Shown here piece by piece: positions 36,237 to 44,582 of a stretch of 64,000 nt of DNA (position 1 is the stretch's first letter; each line of letters starts with the position of its first letter). Origin of the DNA: Pseudomonadota bacterium (GTDB taxonomy: Bacteria; Pseudomonadota; Alphaproteobacteria; Rhizobiales; Hyphomicrobiaceae); the NCBI GenBank assembly GCA_018242295.1, contig JAFECE010000001.1, positions 62,001 to 126,000 of the forward strand. The letters are read 5' to 3'. The notes under the pieces are model-generated. The model did not search any database. It was not told where the DNA came from and worked only from the letters and a program-made list of their open reading frames with translations. A program made the translations under genes and the position numbers.

Positions 36237-36740
36237 TCCCCTATTCTAACCAGCCCGCACGACGCCATGACGAGGTTGTATTGTCAATCTGATAGCAGTC
36301 GAAATGCGTGGATCTGCGGCCCCGGGGCGACACGCTTGGGGTCCAAAAGATAAGTCGTCATTCAATTCGGCAGTTTTGAGCGCGAGATTGTGGAATATCC
36401 GAGCCCGGACTCGCCTCTTTGGCGGGGAATTCCGCACGAACGACGACGTCACGGCCTGGGAAAATTTCGCTGCAAAAAAACGTCGTTTCTCAGTCATTTT
36501 CCAAAGAGCGGCATTTGTGCGTCTTCGTACGAGGAGCCGCGAGCATCGTTCGTCGACCGGCTTCGGCGTTTTATTAGTTCCGCATTCTCCGCTTCGGGAC
36601 GCGGGCTTACGAAGAACTTACAAAAAAACGAAACTCGCGGCGTCTTCGGAAGTCTTTTGATTTCCGCAGTGCGCTCCAGGCTATTGCATACGGCGGTTTG
36701 ACTCAGACGAACTCCGTATCGAGGCGCAGGCGAGACGAAC
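36237..36740. other. Intergenic region before the Na/Pi cotransporter, 504 bp
   Basis: Nothing convincing is encoded here. Short frames such as 36304-36660 lack recognisable domains. The stretch is more AT-rich than its flanks, with A runs near 36475 and 36625, and should hold two divergent promoters. No Pho box could be confirmed by eye. Confidence 0.4.
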
Positions 36741-38441
36741 ATGTCTACGGCAATTGCCATTATCGGCGGCGTTGGGCTGTTTCTCCTTGGGATGACCATC
36801 ATGACCGATGGTCTGAAGGCGCTGGCGGGATCTGCCTTACGCACAGTCCTCGGCAAAGCGGCAGCTACGCCGATCTCGGGCGCCTGGTGGGGCGCCGTCA
36901 TCACGTTGCTCGTGCAGTCCTCAAGCGCGGTGACGATGACGACGATCGGCCTCGTTAGCGCGGGCCTTCTCACATTTCCGCAAGGGCTCGGCCTGGTGTT
37001 CGGCGCCAATGTGGGCACCACGGGCACGGGCTGGCTCGTGGCGCTGATCGGCGTTCGGGTTTCACTCTCGGCCTACGCGTTGCCGCTGATCTTCGCGGGC
37101 GCGCTGGCCAAATTGCTTGGCAGCGGGCGGATCGCGGCGGCGGGCGCGGCAGTTGCTGGCTTCGCGCTGGTCCTCTATGGGCTCACGACTCTCCAAGAAG
37201 GGATGAGAGGCTTGGCGGAGAGCCTCCATCCGTCCGATCTGCCTGCGGTCCTCGGCGCGCCGGGTGTGGGCTGGATCTCAGGGTTCGTCGGCCTCACGAC
37301 TCTGATCGCCATCGGCTTGGTCATGACTGCGGTGATGCAGTCTTCGACGGCCGCCATTGCAGTCACCATTTCGGCCTTCTTCGCCGGGGCGGTGAGCTTG
37401 GAACAGGGTGCGGCACTTATCATCGGACAGAATATCGGAACAGCGACTAGCTCTGCCTTGGCTGCCATTGGCGCCAGCACGACGGCGAAGCGCCTCGCCC
37501 TCGCTTATGTGCTGTTCAAGCTGATCGCGGCGCTTATCGCCATCGTGGCCTTTCCGTTCACGGCGGCAGTTATGAAATTCCTCGTCGCGTCGATTGACGG
37601 GATGACGCTCCTGGCCGCCTACCACACGGTCTATAACGTCGTGGGAGTCGCGGTGCTCCTTCCAGCGACGCAGTGGTTCACCCGAGTCGTAGAGCGGCTT
37701 CTGCCCTCCAAGCAGACGGCGCTTCAGCGCGCGCTCGATCCGAGCGCACTTGCTAGCCCGGTGATCGCGATCGAGACCGCACGGCGTGTCGTGGCTGACG
37801 TCCTCACCAAAATGGCCACCTCGGTCTCCGCCGCGCTTTCAGGCGGAGCAAGTATCGCACGGGGCGAGATTGCAAAGTCGGGGGAGGCGCTTGAAGAGGT
37901 GCGGGATTTCTTGTCTGAATTGAAGGAGCCGCCAGAGACGGAGGACGAGCGGTTGCGCATGACAAGCACGCTGCATGCACTCGACCACGCCTCGCGCCTC
38001 GTCGAAGTTCTGGCAGACGGCGGCCTCCGAGGACAACTAGCCGGGACCTCCTTTGACATTCGCAATGTTGATCTCTGCAAACAGGCCATGCGCGCGACCC
38101 AGGCGGTTGGTAGCTCGATCACTTCGGAATCCGCGCTGAGTGATCGGGCAGCACCCATCGGCTGGAGTCTTTCACCCGAGGTTGCCACGGCACTCGCCGA
38201 CGTGGCAGGGGCCGCCGCGGAACTCGACGCGCTACAGCGGGACTATCGCACTGCGACCCTTGCCTCCGTAGCGCCGGGAAAGCTGACCGCGGCGGATGCC
38301 TTCGCGCGCATCGACACCGCCCGGCTGCTCGACCGCATTGCGCATCATGCCTGGCGGTCGGCGGCACATCTCGTTGGTCGCGGCGAGCACGACGATCTCG
38401 CAGCTTTGTCCATCGAAGAAGCTCCTCTCGAGCCGAGTTGA
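36741..38441 (+). CDS. Na+/Pi cotransporter family protein with PhoU-like tail
   Basis: The 566-residue protein has the inverted-repeat NptA architecture. The signature QSSSAV occurs in the first repeat (LLVQSSSAVTMTTIGLVSAG) and QSSTAA in the second (AVMQSSTAAIAVTISAFFAG), each followed by the GANIGT-type motif (FGANVGTTGTG and IGQNIGTATS). Residues about 330-566 form a soluble helical region like PhoU. It should import phosphate with sodium. It is the last gene before the genomic island's left repeat. It has no visible partner genes. Confidence 0.92.
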   Translation: MSTAIAIIGGVGLFLLGMTIMTDGLKALAGSALRTVLGKAAATPISGAWWGAVITLLVQSSSAVTMTTIGLVSAGLLTFPQGLGLVFGANVGTTGTGWLVALIGVRVSLSAYALPLIFAGALAKLLGSGRIAAAGAAVAGFALVLYGLTTLQEGMRGLAESLHPSDLPAVLGAPGVGWISGFVGLTTLIAIGLVMTAVMQSSTAAIAVTISAFFAGAVSLEQGAALIIGQNIGTATSSALAAIGASTTAKRLALAYVLFKLIAALIAIVAFPFTAAVMKFLVASIDGMTLLAAYHTVYNVVGVAVLLPATQWFTRVVERLLPSKQTALQRALDPSALASPVIAIETARRVVADVLTKMATSVSAALSGGASIARGEIAKSGEALEEVRDFLSELKEPPETEDERLRMTSTLHALDHASRLVEVLADGGLRGQLAGTSFDIRNVDLCKQAMRATQAVGSSITSESALSDRAAPIGWSLSPEVATALADVAGAAAELDALQRDYRTATLASVAPGKLTAADAFARIDTARLLDRIAHHAWRSAAHLVGRGEHDDLAALSIEEAPLEPS

Positions 38442-38518
38442 AGCTTCTTGTTCTTCGAGCATGAGTTTTGATTTGAAGAAAAGGCGTATGCCTCGGCAAG
38501 GACAAGCACGAACCCAAA

Positions 38519-38547
38519 TTCCCAAGCCTCCCACCGCGGCTTGGGAA
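38519..38547. repeat. 10-bp inverted repeat next to the island end
   Basis: TTCCCAAGCC (38519-38528) is the exact reverse complement of GGCTTGGGAA (38538-38547), with a 9-base loop. There is no T-run on either strand, so a classic terminator is unlikely. It lies 42 bp outside the att-like repeat. Confidence 0.6.
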
Positions 38548-38588
38548 CAATTTCGAAAAAACAAATCAATACAACGACGCGGGAGGGT

Positions 38589-38606
38589 TGGTGGAGCCGA
38601 GGGGAA
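38589..38606. repeat. Distal att-like copy of the tRNA-Ala 3' end
   Basis: TGGTGGAGCCGAGGGGAA is an exact 18-bp copy of 44507-44524, which is the 3' end (CCA, acceptor strand and T-arm edge) of tRNA-Ala(CGC). Bases outside it differ. It marks the far end of the inserted segment. Confidence 0.85.
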
Positions 38607-39055
38607 ACAAGCCATTATCCAAGAAATACCAATAAAATCAGACACTTAACAGCCTTGATCACATCGAAGTATACCGTGGCTGTCATCTGGCACCTCGTTC
38701 ATCAGCCAGCGTAGCGGTTTGAGATTCAGCTCCGCTTGGGACACGCCTTCGTCCTGCTGGCGCTTTTGGAACTCGATCAGTGCATGGCAACCAATACGGA
38801 TACCGCGACCAAATTGGAGACGGGTGTCGGAATCGGCGCCCAAATCGAGGAACGTGTTGCGGGTCTGTGCGGCCATCCCTCTCTCCGATGACACCGATCT
38901 TCAGCTCTCCGTCCATCACCGATGGCTTCTATCGTGCACTTGGAGGCGTCAGGTCCTTTGCCGAGCCGGTTTCCGGGAGCGAAGATGAAGCTGCGGCGGG
39001 CGCGGACCTGAGAGAATGGGCCGAACGTAAAGACCTCATTCGCTCGTTTGTTGGG

Positions 39056-39529
39056 TCAGCGCGAGGGAAGTTGAGCGGCTGCGTCGGCGATCGTCACGGT
39101 CGCCTTGAGCGAGCGGGCGATGAAGCAGTGCTTGTGCGCACCGGCATGCATGCGCTGCATAACGGCATAATCGGGCAGTTTCTCGCCGCCAAAGCGAACC
39201 TGTGGAGCGAGTTCGATCCGGGTGATGGCCATGCCGCCGTCCTGCTTTTCGAGATAACCGGTCGCGGTGTCCCGGTATTCATCGACCACAAACCCCTGAA
39301 GCTCGGCAATCGCGAGGAAGAACAGCATGTGACAACTGGACACCGCGTTCACCAGAAGCTGTTCGGGATCGGCGCAATCGGCTTCGCCCTTGTAGTCGAC
39401 CGACGCCGAGACGTTCAGCGTCTGCCCGCCATTCAGATGCGACTGGTGACGGCGCGCATAGGTCTTCGGCTCCGTCTCATGCGGGGCGCGGCGCCATTCA
39501 ATGGAAACTGTGTGAGCTGACATGGACAT
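39056..39529 (-). CDS. OsmC family protein
   Basis: The 157-residue protein has the OsmC/Ohr fold. An ECADPEQLLVNAVSS-type helix carries the peroxidatic cysteine C66 (VSSCHMLFF), and the second cysteine is C135 (AHKHCFIARSL). Both redox positions of the family are therefore kept. Such proteins reduce organic hydroperoxides, and some act on persulfides or other sulfur species. The ATG start may be Met1 or Met3. It is the first island gene and lies 27 bp downstream of the C-S lyase gene on the same strand, so they probably form an operon. Confidence 0.93.
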   Translation of the reverse strand: MSMSAHTVSIEWRRAPHETEPKTYARRHQSHLNGGQTLNVSASVDYKGEADCADPEQLLVNAVSSCHMLFFLAIAELQGFVVDEYRDTATGYLEKQDGGMAITRIELAPQVRFGGEKLPDYAVMQRMHAGAHKHCFIARSLKATVTIADAAAQLPSR

Positions 39530-39556
39530 CTCTTGTTCCTGCTCTTGTTCCTGCGG

Positions 39557-40759
39557 TCAACAATTCGCCTGGATCGCATTTCGGATGCGTTCCAGAGCCT
39601 CCAGCAGGACTGCACGAGGGCAGGCCAGATTGAGGCGCACATGGCCGTCGCCATTGTCCGCGAACATCTCGCCGCCCTCTATGATGACGCCGCCGCGTTC
39701 GAGGAAGAAGCGGGTCAGGTTCACCGGCTGCGGGAAATAGGCCCGGACATCCATCCATGCGAGATAGGTCGCCTCCGGAACCTGCAATCTGGCTTCCGGC
39801 AGGTATTGCCGGACGAAATCGGCCGCAAGGGCGAAATTCCCGTCCAAATAGGCGCGCAGGTCTTCAAGCCATGCCTCGCCTCCACGATAGGACCCGATGG
39901 CGGCGGCGAGACTGAGCGGATTGATGAATGGGTAATGCAGATCCTTCCACACCGCCCGCAGGTCGGGATCAGGGATGACGATGGTGGCGATCATCATCCC
40001 TGCCAGGTTGAAGGTCTTGCTCACCGCCATGCAGGTGATGATGTCTTTGCTTTCAGGGAAGAGCTTCGCCAGTGGCGTATGGCCGAGCCCCGTGCGCAAG
40101 AGGTCGCAATGGATTTCGTCCGACACGATCTTCACGCCGTGTGCGAAGCAGATTTCCCCCATGCGGCGAAGTTCAGCCTCGCTCCACAGCCGCCCGGTGG
40201 GATTATGCGGATGGCAGAGGAAGAACACCTTGACGGCCGGATCAGACGCCTTGTCCTCGAAGTCCACCAGGTCGATCTCGTAGTGCCCTTGGTTGCTGAT
40301 GAGCGGCGACGTCACAAACGTCCGCCCGCTCTTGACGGTCGCATGTTTGAAATAGCCGTAGGACGGGCTCAACGTCAGCACCTTGTCGTCGGGCCCGCAC
40401 AGATAGTCGACAAGACCGAACAGCGCCGGAATGATGCCAAGCGACAGCACCATCTGCTCGCGGGGAAAACTCCAGCCATGCCGACGGTCGCACCAGTCGC
40501 GGAACACGTCATAAAGCTGATCGTCGAAATTCATCGTGTATCCGAAGATTGGATGCTTCAGCCGATCGGCCATGGCGTCGAGCGCCGCCTGGGGGGCGGC
40601 AAACTGCATATCGGCCACCCACATCTGGATGATGTCTTCTCTCGGACGATCCAGAGTTAGCGGTGCACTCCTGGCGCCGAAAAGGTAGCCCTCATAGCCT
40701 TCGGCGGCGACGGCATTGGTTTCATGGCGGGGTATGAGGCGGTCGAAATCATGACCCAT
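39557..40759 (-). CDS. MalY/PatB-type PLP-dependent C-S lyase (aminotransferase fold)
   Basis: I start at Met 40759 (MGHDFDRLIPRHETNA), giving 400 residues; a longer frame up to 40900 would run through the divergent promoter. The opening motif with the later MWVADMQF matches the MalY/PatB group of cystathionine beta-lyase-like enzymes. D214 (IVSDEIH) and K248 (MAVSKTFNLAG) are the PLP-binding residues, and CHPHNPTGR precedes them. The expected reaction is release of a thiol or H2S, ammonia and pyruvate from cysteine or a cysteine conjugate. An Lrp-type regulator gene is divergent, and an OsmC-family gene follows. Confidence 0.9.
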   Translation of the reverse strand: MGHDFDRLIPRHETNAVAAEGYEGYLFGARSAPLTLDRPREDIIQMWVADMQFAAPQAALDAMADRLKHPIFGYTMNFDDQLYDVFRDWCDRRHGWSFPREQMVLSLGIIPALFGLVDYLCGPDDKVLTLSPSYGYFKHATVKSGRTFVTSPLISNQGHYEIDLVDFEDKASDPAVKVFFLCHPHNPTGRLWSEAELRRMGEICFAHGVKIVSDEIHCDLLRTGLGHTPLAKLFPESKDIITCMAVSKTFNLAGMMIATIVIPDPDLRAVWKDLHYPFINPLSLAAAIGSYRGGEAWLEDLRAYLDGNFALAADFVRQYLPEARLQVPEATYLAWMDVRAYFPQPVNLTRFFLERGGVIIEGGEMFADNGDGHVRLNLACPRAVLLEALERIRNAIQANC

Positions 40760-40826
40760 CGGCGTACTGGCCCTGTCGTGGCGACCGGCGAAAGGGGCCG
40801 CTTGATGATCGAAGGAGATGTGGAAG

Positions 40827-40847
40827 CATACGCCAACGCGGCGTATG
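40827..40847. promoter_or_regulatory. Palindromic operator candidate between the C-S lyase and lrp-type genes
   Basis: CATACGCC (40827-40834) and GGCGTATG (40840-40847) form a perfect palindrome with a 5-base centre. It is about 75 bp from each of the two divergent starts, as expected for a shared operator of the Lrp/AsnC-type regulator encoded to the right. Confidence 0.6.
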
Positions 40848-40911
40848 AGACTTGCCAAACTTTCCAAGGTCATGCCCAACATCATGGCAGAACCTGTCAA
40901 CGATCGGCGCC

Positions 40912-41373
40912 ATGGACGAGATTGATTCCAAGATCATCATAGAACTGCAACAGGACGGGCGCCTGACCAATCAGAAGTTGAGCGAGCGGGTGAATCTGTC
41001 TCCCTCGCCCTGCCACAGGCGCGTGCGCATTCTAGAAGAATCCGGCGTGATCGAGGGCTATGGAGCCCGCATCAGCCATCGGGCGCTCGGCATGCCGATC
41101 ATCGCCTTCATCACAGTGCGCCTTGCCGTTCAAAGTAAGAATGCGATGGCAGAATTCGAGCAAGGGGTGCGCCGCACTCCAGAAATTACGGCATGCTATC
41201 TGATGTCGGGACGGCAGGATTACCTACTTCAGGTCTTCGCCGCATCGCTCGACAGCTATGAGCAATTCGTCCGCGAAAAGCTCTCCGAATTGCCCGGAAT
41301 CGGTCAGTGGGAGACGAACTTCGTATTTGGTGAGATCAAGAAGGGCTATCTGACGCCGACGCCGCGCAGATAG
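40912..41373 (+). CDS. Lrp/AsnC family transcriptional regulator
   Basis: The start at ATG 40912 gives 153 residues. The protein begins with the Lrp signature DEIDSKIIIELQQDGRLTNQ. The helix-turn-helix region is LSERVNLSPSPCHRRVRILEESGVIEGY, and the RAM ligand-binding domain follows, ending GIGQWETNFVFGEIKKGYLT. It is divergent from the C-S lyase gene, and a palindrome lies midway. The likely role is amino-acid-responsive (perhaps cysteine-responsive) control of that enzyme, as with DecR/YbaO or AsnC-type cysteine regulators; that is inference from position. Confidence 0.93.
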   Translation: MDEIDSKIIIELQQDGRLTNQKLSERVNLSPSPCHRRVRILEESGVIEGYGARISHRALGMPIIAFITVRLAVQSKNAMAEFEQGVRRTPEITACYLMSGRQDYLLQVFAASLDSYEQFVREKLSELPGIGQWETNFVFGEIKKGYLTPTPRR

Positions 41374-41388
41374 CGCGCCATCCGTGCG

Positions 41389-41835
41389 TCAACCTCTCGC
41401 CGCCAGCCTCCGAGCAGCTTCATCCAGAATGTCGAACGGCAGCATGATCGACCCATGACGCGAGCGAAATGCCCTTGCCGCGACGAACATGTCGAGTTCC
41501 TGCCAGGCTTCCGGAAATCGCACCTCGGTCCCGTCGAGCAAATCCTTCAACTGTCGGCCCACCGCTGAGATTTCGCTGAAGGTCGCTCCCCTGGCGGCAT
41601 CTACCACGATCGCGGTCGACGCCATGCCAAGGGTGCAGGCACGTGCGCGATAGCCCAGAGCGATGACACGATCGCCATCACATCGAGTATCGAGCGCGAG
41701 CGAGCTGCCGCAAATGGGCGATGTCCTGACGATCGAGATATCCGCATCCGCGAGTCGGACGTCGTTACGGACCTGTCTGGCCTTATCCCTTACCCTTTGC
41801 TCGTAGAGCGCATCGACGTCTCGGCCCGCCGTCAT
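41389..41835 (-). CDS. NifU/IscU-like iron-sulfur scaffold protein lacking the third cysteine
   Basis: The 148-residue protein follows the IscU/NifU N-domain pattern: DADISIVRTSPICGSSLALD with C42, and YRARACTLGMAS with C67. The third ligand cysteine, expected in the segment RSRHGSIMLPFDIL, is absent; the position is Gly or Ser at about residues 128-129. That cysteine normally takes the persulfide sulfur, so canonical cluster assembly is doubtful. The gene overlaps the DUF1641 gene by four bases in the order SQR-like, DUF1641, NifU-like. A specialised sulfur carrier or sensor is possible. Confidence 0.82.
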   Translation of the reverse strand: MTAGRDVDALYEQRVRDKARQVRNDVRLADADISIVRTSPICGSSLALDTRCDGDRVIALGYRARACTLGMASTAIVVDAARGATFSEISAVGRQLKDLLDGTEVRFPEAWQELDMFVAARAFRSRHGSIMLPFDILDEAARRLAARG

Positions 41836-42266
41836 GCCGCTGGATCATCGCGCATCTGCCGTCCGAGCACTTCCAGAAACAGCAATGCGAAATGGAGCCC
41901 CCTGCGCACATCTTCGCCGCCCGCAGCCCGCACCAATCCGAAAAGCGAGGGCGTCTTCCGCACGCAAGCCTCATTGGCGGCATAGCGGGCCGCGTTGCCC
42001 AGCGACCACGCGGCGCCGACCCCTTCCTCATACGTCTTCATCATCTTCTGGATCAAGGCGTCATCCGCCATGTCCACGGCATCGGATGCGAGCGAGAGGA
42101 GATCAACGATGTTGTGAAACCGCCGTCCCTGAAGGAGCGGCGCCACTTTCTCCAGAAGTTCGGCGAGGCCTCGCTCGGTCGCCTCGTCCATGATGGATAC
42201 CCCCCGAGCCGAACCTTCCAGGGAAACCTGTCGTGCCGTGTCATTCATCGAAGTGTTGTTTGACAT
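41832..42266 (-). CDS. DUF1641 domain protein
   Basis: The start at Met 42266 (MSNNTSMNDTARQ) gives 144 residues. A longer frame to 42407 overlaps the neighbour and lacks support. The sequence GLAELLEKVAPLLQGRRFHNIVDLLSLASDAVDMADDALIQ and a C-terminal RGLHFALLFLEVLGRQM match the DUF1641 (YrhD-like) helical family, which recurs beside FAD-dependent sulfide oxidoreductases. It lies 46 bp after the SQR-like gene and overlaps the NifU-like gene. It may be an assembly or membrane-docking partner for the oxidoreductase; biochemical function is unknown. Confidence 0.85.
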   Translation of the reverse strand: MSNNTSMNDTARQVSLEGSARGVSIMDEATERGLAELLEKVAPLLQGRRFHNIVDLLSLASDAVDMADDALIQKMMKTYEEGVGAAWSLGNAARYAANEACVRKTPSLFGLVRAAGGEDVRRGLHFALLFLEVLGRQMRDDPAA

Positions 42267-42312
42267 GTCTGCTGTCCGCCCTTCTGCGCGCTGATGGTTG
42301 CCGGAAACGATC

Positions 42313-43503
42313 TCAGATGATCCCTCGGGCGACGGACCAATAGATGCCCCGGTTGAACGCCTTGCGCAGAAGACCGCCCACCTTGGTGGGCGGAGTGGGA
42401 TGGACATCCTCGTCGTAATCGTACCAGAGCGGCATACCGACCTCGAGGCCCATCTGGGCTACGGCCTGTACCTTGCCGTCATAGGCATCGACGGTGCGGC
42501 CGATCCGAAGATCGCCTGCGATATTGTTCGCGATCACCGGGCATTGATTGTGGCAGGAGCCGCCGGCCTTGCTGATCGGCAGGTCCACCGTGTCGCCCAT
42601 TACATAGGCGTTGGGATAGCCTTCAAGCTGGAGCGTCCGCCGATCCGTCGGCAGCCAACCTTCGTTGTTCGCAGCCTGCGACACGCCGCTTTCGATCACC
42701 GCGTCGACGGCCCGGATCGGCGGCGTGCACAAAAGGAGGTCGAATTTCTCCTCGCGGCCTTCCTCGGACATGGCGATCTTTTTGTCAGGGTCTACCGACG
42801 CCAGGGTGAACCCGCGCTGGTACTTGATGCCCTTGCTTTCGAATATGGGCGGCAGGACCTCGCAGACTTCCCGCTGGAGGAAGAGGCAATTGCGCAGGAG
42901 TTGCGAAACAGTAGGGTACGTATAGACGATCTCGACCGCGTCGCGCACCCCTTTGTGCCGCAGATACTCGTCGACCATCAAGGTCGTTTCCACCGGGGCG
43001 ATGCCGCACTGATGTGGGACGTTCGCCGTCTTGGGGAAATTCACAGTGATGAAGATGCGTCCTTTCTCGAAAGTCCGCAGCTTGTCGGCAAGCCGCCGGG
43101 CCGGCTCATACTGATAGAAATAATCGCCAGCTTCCTTAAGGCCGGGAATGCGCTCGGGTGCCGGCAGACAGCCGGTAGAAACGACGATGTAATCGTAGCC
43201 GATCGTCTTTCCGGCCTGCGTTGTCACGCGTGATCCTGCGAAATCGAACCGTACGACCTTGTCGACCTGGAAATCGATCTCCGGGCGCAGCAATGTTTTC
43301 TGTCTGCGCCGCAGCTCGCCTTCGAAGAACGTGTCGAACGCCACATACATGAAGGCGGGTTTGTAATAGTGCCAGGGAGAGTCCGACAGCAACGTGACCT
43401 TGACCGAACCCCTTGATATTTCGGGATAGAGCTTCGCAACAATGCTGTTGGCGGTCATCGTTCCGCCGATACCGCCTCCAACGATCAGAATATGCTTGGG
43501 CAT
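42313..43503 (-). CDS. Sulfide:quinone reductase-like FAD oxidoreductase
   Basis: The start at Met 43503 gives 396 residues. The FAD Rossmann motif is GGGIGG (9-14), followed by the second dinucleotide-binding GYDYIVVSTGCLPAPERI and the YVMGDTVDLPISKAGG segment that holds FAD. C166 in PHQCGIAPVE corresponds to the redox cysteine of SQRs, and C317 or C321 (GGSCHNQCPV) to the partner near the flavin. A C-terminal basic and aromatic stretch fits membrane docking. It probably oxidises sulfide to polysulfide with quinone as acceptor. A related flavocytochrome c-type or coenzyme A-disulfide enzyme is a less likely alternative. Confidence 0.85.
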   Translation of the reverse strand: MPKHILIVGGGIGGTMTANSIVAKLYPEISRGSVKVTLLSDSPWHYYKPAFMYVAFDTFFEGELRRRQKTLLRPEIDFQVDKVVRFDFAGSRVTTQAGKTIGYDYIVVSTGCLPAPERIPGLKEAGDYFYQYEPARRLADKLRTFEKGRIFITVNFPKTANVPHQCGIAPVETTLMVDEYLRHKGVRDAVEIVYTYPTVSQLLRNCLFLQREVCEVLPPIFESKGIKYQRGFTLASVDPDKKIAMSEEGREEKFDLLLCTPPIRAVDAVIESGVSQAANNEGWLPTDRRTLQLEGYPNAYVMGDTVDLPISKAGGSCHNQCPVIANNIAGDLRIGRTVDAYDGKVQAVAQMGLEVGMPLWYDYDEDVHPTPPTKVGGLLRKAFNRGIYWSVARGII

Positions 43504-43575
43504 TCGCTCTCCCCAAATTTTTCCTTGCCACCGGGCTTTGCCGCATACTGTAACAGGCCCAACGGGTGGCGAGTT

Positions 43576-43606
43576 CGGGAACCTTTCCATAATGGAAGGG
43601 TTCCCG
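43576..43606. promoter_or_regulatory. Long palindromic operator between the SQR-like and regulator genes
   Basis: The left half-site CGGGAACCTTTCCAT (43576-43590) and the right half-site (43592-43606) match as reverse complements at 14 of 15 positions around a central A. The centre is 88-89 bp from both divergent starts. It is a strong candidate binding site for the winged-helix regulator encoded to the right. Confidence 0.75.
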
Positions 43607-43679
43607 CAGAATTGGCGATACGGCACCGGGCCGAATCTCCACCCGGCGAACAATTGCCTTTCAAGGTACGGAGCCGTCG

Positions 43680-44144
43680 GTGGCAGATACGGATAGCGAA
43701 GCGATACGCGCGATTGTGCAAGGCCAAATCATCGAATGCCTCAACCGCTTTTATGCGATCGAGACCGGCATGTGGGGCGGTCCGCTCGATGCCTTGATCA
43801 TCAGAACCGTCGTCGTTGGTGAGATGCAGGGCAAGCTCTACGATATTTCAGCACTTGCCTATGCTTTGGACATTCCGCTTTCAACCGTCCATCGTAAGAC
43901 ACGAGAACTGGAAGAGGCTGGCTTCCTGCATTCTCACCGGCAAGGACGGTCGACCTATTGGCGGCCCACCGCGCGTACCAGCGTTGAACTCGACAAGTCG
44001 TTCGCAGAGATGATTTCGACGCTGGAACGCCTCTACCGATCTCCATCGCCGTGCGGGGCTTTGCTGCATGCGTCTGGGAGCCGGACGCAGCCGGACTTTC
44101 CGGAAGAGTTCACCAGAGAGCTGCGCGAGCGTGGTCGAGAATGA
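43680..44144 (+). CDS. Winged-helix (MarR/IclR-type) transcriptional regulator
   Basis: Translation from GTG 43680 gives 154 residues. A helix-turn-helix is visible at about residues 55-85 (DISALAYALDIPLSTVHRKTRELEE, AGFLHSHRQGRSTYWRPT). It is divergent from the SQR-like operon, and a long palindrome lies between them, so it probably controls that operon, perhaps in response to sulfide or persulfide. There is one cysteine (SPCGALL) near the C-terminus. The last residues meet the edge of the integrase remnant, so the tail may be shortened or chimeric. Confidence 0.75.
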   Translation: MADTDSEAIRAIVQGQIIECLNRFYAIETGMWGGPLDALIIRTVVVGEMQGKLYDISALAYALDIPLSTVHRKTRELEEAGFLHSHRQGRSTYWRPTARTSVELDKSFAEMISTLERLYRSPSPCGALLHASGSRTQPDFPEEFTRELRERGRE

Positions 44145-44416
44145 CGGACATACTCGATGAGCACATTTTGAGGGACAGGTGTTGCGCTCGCATTTTCGCC
44201 AGAAGGAGTGTGCTGTTAGGCGGCATCAAACAGCGCATCGATTTTCATGTCTTCGACCGTGCGAAGCTTCTTGGCTTCGGCAAAGTTCGAGGTGTTGAGC
44301 GACCTCTTGAAGAAGCTCTTTCCAATTTTCGGGAGGAGGTGCAAGAGCGTGCAGCGATAGTAGTGCTAAACGTTGCCGCGCTTTTGCAGATGGAGAGTTT
44401 CAGCCACTAATTTCAT
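44145..44416 (-). pseudogene. Integrase N-terminal remnant (DUF6538-type tyrosine recombinase)
   Basis: Reading the minus strand from ATG at 44416 gives MKLVAETLHLQKRGNV, then TAG (44366-44368), HYYRCTLLHLLPKIGKSFFK and on through RSLNTSNFAEAKKLRTVEDM and KIDALFDAA, TAA (44216-44218), and QHTPSGENASATPVPQNVLIEYVR in the same frame. LQKRGNV(Y)HYYR and RSLNTSNFAEAKKL match the N-terminal domain (DUF6538) of tRNA-site integrases. The frame has two stops and the catalytic domain is missing, cut off where the regulator gene ends. It lies 90 bp from the tRNA, as an island integrase should. Confidence 0.82.
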
Positions 44417-44506
44417 GCTCAAGTATACCACTGGTGTGACCAACGGCTGGGCATAAGTGACTGATATGGTTGCTAAGTTAGGAAGAACAACAACTTAGCT
44501 GGCAAC

Positions 44507-44524
44507 TGGTGGAGCCGAGGGGAA
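44507..44524. repeat. Proximal att-like repeat within the tRNA-Ala 3' end
   Basis: The 18-bp sequence TGGTGGAGCCGAGGGGAA, shared with 38589-38606, covers the CCA end, acceptor 3' strand and the start of the T-arm of the tRNA gene. The tRNA is intact, as is usual on the side where the gene is restored. Confidence 0.85.
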
Positions 44525-44582
44525 TCGAACCCCTGACCTCTGCAGTGCGATTGCAGCGCTCTCCCATCTGAGCTACGGCCCC
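44507..44582 (-). tRNA. tRNA-Ala(CGC)
   Basis: The minus-strand sequence folds as a complete cloverleaf. The acceptor stem is GGGGCCG paired with CGGCTCC. The D-arm is GCTC...GAGC. The anticodon stem is CTGCA/TGCAG with a seven-base loop ATCGCAC giving anticodon CGC (codon GCG), and the T-arm is AGGGGTTCGATTCCCCT. The CCA end is encoded at 44507-44509. It is the insertion site of the island to its left. Confidence 0.95.

Follow-up and report, generated by a model that had tools for sequence, protein, structure and literature searches.

The stretch of DNA analysed here (64,000 nucleotides, hereafter the window) corresponds to positions 62001-126000 of contig C3 in a 4.05-Mb genome of the Hyphomicrobiaceae that is assembled in 11 contigs (G000). 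At its tRNA-Ala(CGC) gene the window very probably carries an acquired island that was inserted by a tyrosine integrase, after which the integrase decayed and the cargo genes were retained. A decayed integrative island at this tRNA had been proposed from the sequence alone (the original prediction), and it is supported by an empty site in a sister species, by exact direct repeats and by an integrase stub of the DUF6538 type.

Boundaries of the island

The island is delimited by an 18-bp direct repeat, TGGTGGAGCCGAGGGGAA, of which the two predicted copies (38589-38606 and 44507-44524) were confirmed to be exact and far above chance. Allowing up to three mismatches these are the only matches in the window, compared with a mean of 0.05 in 100 shuffles, and allowing up to two mismatches they are the only copies in the whole genome. 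Identity between the copies does not extend past the 18 bp on either side. ARAGORN detected a single tRNA in the window, tRNA-Ala(CGC) on the minus strand, at 44507-44582. This means that the right-hand repeat copy is the 3' end of the tRNA and that this end faces the island, in agreement with the orientation originally described. The features of the region are listed in Table 1.

Table 1. Features of the island and its attachment sites, with positions in the window and the evidence for each assignment (scores are given against the cut-off of the model).
Feature	Position	Strand	Evidence
Distal 18-bp repeat copy (displaced tRNA 3' end)	38589-38606		Exact match to 44507-44524; single copy in the empty site of G008
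Island, 5,918 bp including one repeat copy	38607-44524		Repeat spacing 5918; stretch missing from G008
OsmC-family protein, 157 aa	39056-39529	-	PF02566, 51.8 bits vs 27.5
PatB-family C-S lyase, 400 aa (chosen ATG)	39557-40759	-	TIGR04350, 360.8 bits vs 340
Lrp/AsnC-family regulator, 153 aa, divergent from patB	40912-41373	+	PF01037, 70.4 bits vs 25
SufU/NifU_N-like protein, 148 aa	41389-41835	-	PF01592, 25.2 bits vs 22
DUF1641 protein, 144 aa	41832-42266	-	PF07849, 29.7 bits vs 21 (longer frame)
SQR-like flavoprotein, 396 aa	42313-43503	-	Best solved relatives are sulfide:quinone oxidoreductases, E 3.8e-20
Winged-helix regulator, 154 aa, GTG start, divergent from SQR	43680-44144	+	PF09339, 24.4 bits vs 22; beside SQR in 24/80 loci
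DUF6538 integrase stub, N-terminus only	44145-44416	-	In-frame TAG and TAA; Pfam match; alignment to the G424 integrase
Integrase-proximal attachment arm	44417-44506		Homologous arm at the same tRNA in G020 and G016
tRNA-Ala(CGC), intact	44507-44582	-	Proximal repeat copy at its 3' end (44507-44524, 18 bp)

The tRNA locus in related species

The neighbourhood of tRNA-Ala(CGC) was compared in 20 of the 21 other members of a genus sample (22 genomes with our own, one per species). G019 was left out as it gave a weak tRNA match only, the stretches of G007 and G011 were compared without the tRNA itself, and the island-side sequence before the contig end amounted to 2.4 kb in G016 and 22 bp in G018. 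In G008, the closest relative compared, a homologue of the left flank is followed by one copy of the 18-bp repeat and an intact tRNA-Ala(CGC). Identity is 82% over 181 bp in the left flank, repeat included (window 38427-38606), and 93.5% over 2,006 bp in the right flank, and the two flanks are joined at the single repeat copy. The empty site that the original prediction called for is thus present and exact at the repeat. G006 (right flank 88.7% identical) is conserved up to window position 36342 and G003 (86.8%) up to 35665, and in these species the tRNA is reached 0.2 and 0.8 kb later, respectively, without the island. The OsmC, PatB, Lrp, SufU-like, SQR and winged-helix regulator proteins of the island had no match in the tRNA-region stretches of the 20 relatives. 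The same genes in the same place with no empty counterpart, which had been named as an argument against an island, were therefore not encountered, and a gain in the lineage of the window is the simplest history.

The left flank itself is variable, since a Na/Pi cotransporter-family gene to the left of the island (36741-38441) is absent from the locus in G006 and reduced to a similar piece of 114 bp in G008. The empty site of G008 is adjoined by approximately 13 kb of genes that by eye resemble those for exopolysaccharide synthesis (glycosyltransferases etc.; L035, G008:C4:164000-183999, at about 3.4-16.8 kb).

The integrase stub

An N-terminal remnant of an integrase, interrupted by TAG and TAA, had been predicted on the minus strand 90 bp from the tRNA. 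The frame at 44145-44416 indeed contains one TAG and one TAA within 90 codons, its first codon lies 90 bp from tRNA-Ala(CGC), and its translation, with X in place of each stop, scores 34.2 bits (E 2e-8) with the Pfam family DUF6538, whose cut-off is 27. It is homologous to the N-terminus of an open DUF6538 integrase of 583 residues that lies by the same tRNA in G424, a genome of the same order and another family: alignment to residues 1-97 gave a local score of 180, the maximum in 1,000 shuffles being 50. The stub is missed by tblastn with the G424 integrase at default settings and is recovered by a permissive run and by this direct alignment. Residues 98-583 (G424 numbering) were not found in the island, which accordingly lacks the complete integrase of an active element; this supports the claim that most of the integrase was lost.

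Among 103 genomes of the family, close homologues of the stub (E 1e-4) were found in G016 and G020 only, both by tRNA-Ala(CGC) sequence and both broken; a second close homologue was not found in our own genome. The homologue in G016 has an in-frame TAA and matches residues 1-73 only, and that in G020 has a gap of 44 bases relative to the window and then continues across three frames. As these lesions differ from those in the window and from each other, the decay events appear to be independent. The arm that separates the integrase from the tRNA, in which an 8-bp inverted repeat (44472-44479 and 44492-44499) is visible by eye, is alike in the window, G016 and G020, and the rest of the island sequence has no match among them.

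A profile built from these three stubs gave matches at E 1e-6 in 27 of 397 genomes of the order (our own included). At 17 of 20 scanned loci, again including our own, a tRNA precedes the integrase match directly on the same strand (Ala 5, Ser 5, Leu 3, Arg 2, Gly 1, Gln 1). The profile also finds a copy with an in-frame TAG in G004, beside tRNA-Ala(GGC).

Other elements at the same tRNA

The G424 element (C54:7545-24585) shares with the island a DUF6538 integrase at tRNA-Ala(CGC) and a repeat that contains the equivalent 18 bp, in G424 a 20-bp repeat with copies 17,023 bp apart. It differs in that its integrase is open over all 583 residues, in its size (17.0 kb) and in its cargo, which by eye resembles type I restriction-modification genes. 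No distal repeat was seen in the first stretches examined of G424, G314, G004, G284, G391, G381 and G128; when five of these genomes were searched whole, a second identical copy was present in G424 only.

Five of the 22 genus genomes contain the 18 bp at least twice (up to one mismatch); for a control pattern the number is 0. In G020 a one-mismatch copy lies 25.4 kb away. In G013 the repeat comprises 50 bp of the tRNA, with copies 33.8 kb apart, and in G009 it comprises 49 bp, with copies 49.2 kb apart, which is a second kind of crossover at tRNA-Ala(CGC); in these large elements (L157, L158, L041 and L042) a tyrosine-integrase match is found near each distal end. In G016, for which no distal repeat was present in the stretch examined, one contig has the stub next to the displaced 3' part of the tRNA and the flank on another starts with the whole tRNA, so that a second element would lie between them. 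The whole tRNA-Ala(CGC) of G016 has three mismatches in the 18-bp core and the displaced core on the other contig is perfect (L038, L156). The contig start near this tRNA resembles, by eye, a relaxase gene. Beside the broken integrase of G020 a repeat-rich frame of 902 codons (L039, 13593-16301) resembles, by eye, an adhesin with head-domain repeats.

Islands inserted in tRNA 3' ends by tyrosine recombinases have in common a direct repeat of the tRNA 3' end, a tRNA-proximal integrase, an empty site and the repeated use of one tRNA, all of which apply here. Genomic islands at asparagine-tDNA hotspots are one published case (PMC4891358). The present island differs in that its integrase is reduced to an N-terminal stub, in being very small and in that no transfer genes were recognized in it. 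It is a well-documented but ordinary genomic island.

Cargo genes

The cargo had been described as about 5 kb of sulfur genes. This applies to the putative sulfide:quinone oxidoreductase (SQR) and PatB and perhaps to the SufU-like protein, but none of the remaining products (OsmC, DUF1641 and the two regulators) is in itself a sulfur enzyme. The SQR scored 243.9 bits with the type III SQR selenoprotein-subtype model NF049943, below its cut-off of 525. In alignment with the human SQR one active-site cysteine is matched (vphqCgiap / tpvkCagap) and the C-terminal one of the human enzyme has no cysteine opposite; these active-site cysteines are catalytic. The SufU-like protein reached 56.9 bits with TIGR01994, under the cut-off of 92.5. 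It appears by eye to lack the third cysteine that is usual in NifU_N/SufU proteins, and may therefore not be a normal Fe-S scaffold. In the left approximately 450 bp of the island (38607-39055) no Pfam match was obtained in the single frame tested (38646-38891), nor any match to plasmids.

Distribution of the cargo

The foreignness of the cargo to the genus was assessed genome-wide for SQR and PatB (the latter searched as 39557-40756) and at the locus for the OsmC, Lrp, SufU-like and winged-helix proteins. None of the 21 genus mates has an SQR orthologue: five contain paralogues of 28-31% identity and 16 nothing at E 1e-20. PatB was likewise absent from all 21 at E 1e-20. Of the 102 other genomes of the family, two have an SQR match that reaches E 1e-80, at 39% identity.

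Relatives of the SQR were collected by a scan of named genomes, in which 87 of 105 candidate stretches encoded one; the best 80 of these 87, many of them short loci, were kept. They are 55-90% identical to the island protein, the best being in Stappia indica. Within 3 kb of SQR the DUF1641 gene was present in 77 of the 80 loci, the SufU-like gene in 45 and the regulator in 24. All four genes occur together in 22 loci, and this cassette, found in Stappia, Aquamicrobium etc. with an SQR 81-90% identical to ours, corresponds to one part of the cargo. It differs from the island in PatB, for which no match at E 1e-6 was seen in any of the 80 loci, many of them short. Plasmid pLN1-183666 of Agrobacterium tumefaciens encodes a PatB of 80% identity, a divergent Lrp-family gene and an OsmC-family gene nearby, but with two genes between PatB and OsmC and with no SQR listed in a stretch of 13.2 kb. 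A Burkholderia plasmid has PatB and OsmC, with no Lrp gene listed within 9.2 kb. The island thus joins two modules, regulator/SQR/DUF1641/SufU-like and Lrp/PatB/OsmC, that are never together in the 80 loci. A plasmid source of the island was considered and rejected: a single record covers 18% of it, and the stub and the left 454 bp have no plasmid match.

Comparison of the SQR with four of its relatives among the 80 loci gave non-synonymous divergences (dN) of 0.06-0.09 and synonymous divergences (dS) of 0.93-1.11. This indicates that it was under purifying selection for most of its divergence, and says little on the time since capture. A contig titled Bacillus subtilis SK6B4 (L068) encodes an SQR 88% identical to that of the island; the record is probably mislabelled or contaminated.

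Proposed history and alternatives

In the history that we favour, a small integrative element would have inserted at the 3' end of tRNA-Ala(CGC). The site-specific recombination would have been carried out by a tyrosine integrase of the DUF6538 type, whose gene lay just inside the tRNA-proximal end. Most likely this enzyme was the parent of the stub itself. A crossover within the 18-bp identity block would have left the tRNA whole, with the displaced 18 bp now lying at 38589. Afterwards the integrase would have lost everything past approximately residue 90 and acquired stop codons, so that the element would be unable to excise by its own enzyme; it may now be fixed, as originally proposed. The seven cargo genes have remained open.

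Several observations weigh against this history. In G008 the homology of the left flank covers little sequence (some 163 bp beyond the repeat and the 114-bp piece), with approximately 14 kb of unrelated DNA further left, and a precise excision from G008 rather than an insertion here is possible. Composition is near background and marginally unusual: the codon-use divergence of the seven island genes is 0.033 compared with 0.012-0.035 in 28 overlapping window blocks of equal size, 27 of which are lower, and the GC content is 0.595 compared with 0.591-0.638 in the same blocks. The deviation in GC and codon use that was to be looked for is marginal, GC lying within the range of the blocks, and on balance it neither strengthens nor weakens the proposal. 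For three of the 20 loci retrieved by the stub profile, the stretch contains no tRNA. In G284 an open integrase frame lies by tRNA-Ala(CGC) with the exact 18 bp present once only, the integrase being 1.7 kb from the contig end. Finally, 13 of the 22 genus genomes contain DUF6538 matches, of which many lie in long open frames and one, a weak match, is in our own genome (G000:C2:1037922, an open frame of 583 codons). Movement in trans is hence conceivable, if unlikely, and it is in the present subgroup alone that only stubs are found.

The island could be of composite origin, the repeats, arm and stub being those of an older dead element in which one or both cargo modules arrived later and replaced the body of the integrase. 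The end of the stub coincides with the start of the cargo in both the window and G016, with unrelated cargos, and the two modules are never found together in the 80 related loci. However, no insertion sequence or extra repeat was recognized at the internal junctions by a limited search and inspection. We regard this origin as a minority possibility; it is compatible with the insertion and decay proposed above, and both could hold together.

It is unlikely that the island is still mobile, with a related integrase elsewhere in the cell acting in trans on its ends. In favour of this, both repeats are exact, G020 and G016 have a conserved arm, and the genome contains nine PF00589 matches besides the weak DUF6538 match. 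Against this, the sole close homologues in the 103 family genomes are broken, and the genome has no second close homologue of the stub. Even less probable is an ancestral presence of the cluster at this site with later deletion in the relatives, which in G008 would have run exactly from one repeat to the other. Such a deletion would leave the single copy seen in G008, but this history requires separate losses in G008, G006 and G003, and SQR and PatB would have to have disappeared from all 21 genus mates, whereas distant genera such as Stappia have an SQR of up to 90% identity. A coincidental repeat in ordinary chromosome, with which the near-background composition would agree, can be dismissed in view of the 0.05 matches expected at up to three mismatches and of the single-copy empty site in G008, which refutes it.

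Possible function and significance

PatB-type enzymes release sulfide, and SQR feeds the quinone pool. In the island PatB would free sulfide from cysteine-type compounds and SQR would hand the electrons of sulfide to quinone. As for the DUF1641 protein, its presence by SQR in 77 of the 80 loci, together with the precedent of ForE1, raises the possibility of a role in quinone coupling. ForE1 is a subunit with a DUF1641 domain that is needed for quinone reduction by a formate dehydrogenase of Bacillus, as described in PMC8808070. By analogy, we tentatively suggest that the cargo may be a self-contained module that makes sulfide through PatB and burns it through SQR, with DUF1641 as the quinone-coupling subunit of a two-part SQR, and that it may have been stranded by decay of the integrase, as in the sister elements at the same tRNA.

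Among the titles listed in literature searches on tRNA islands, DUF1641, DUF6538 and sulfide quinone/horizontal transfer, none concerned this locus, and in the library searched no paper was found under the domain name DUF6538. What is generally understood of tRNA islands is not altered by this case. It illustrates, on a small scale and with both boundaries defined, how metabolic genes reached a tRNA and would then have been stranded through decay of the integrase, it ties a subgroup of DUF6538 integrases to tRNA 3' ends, and it suggests a partner role for DUF1641 in the oxidation of sulfide.

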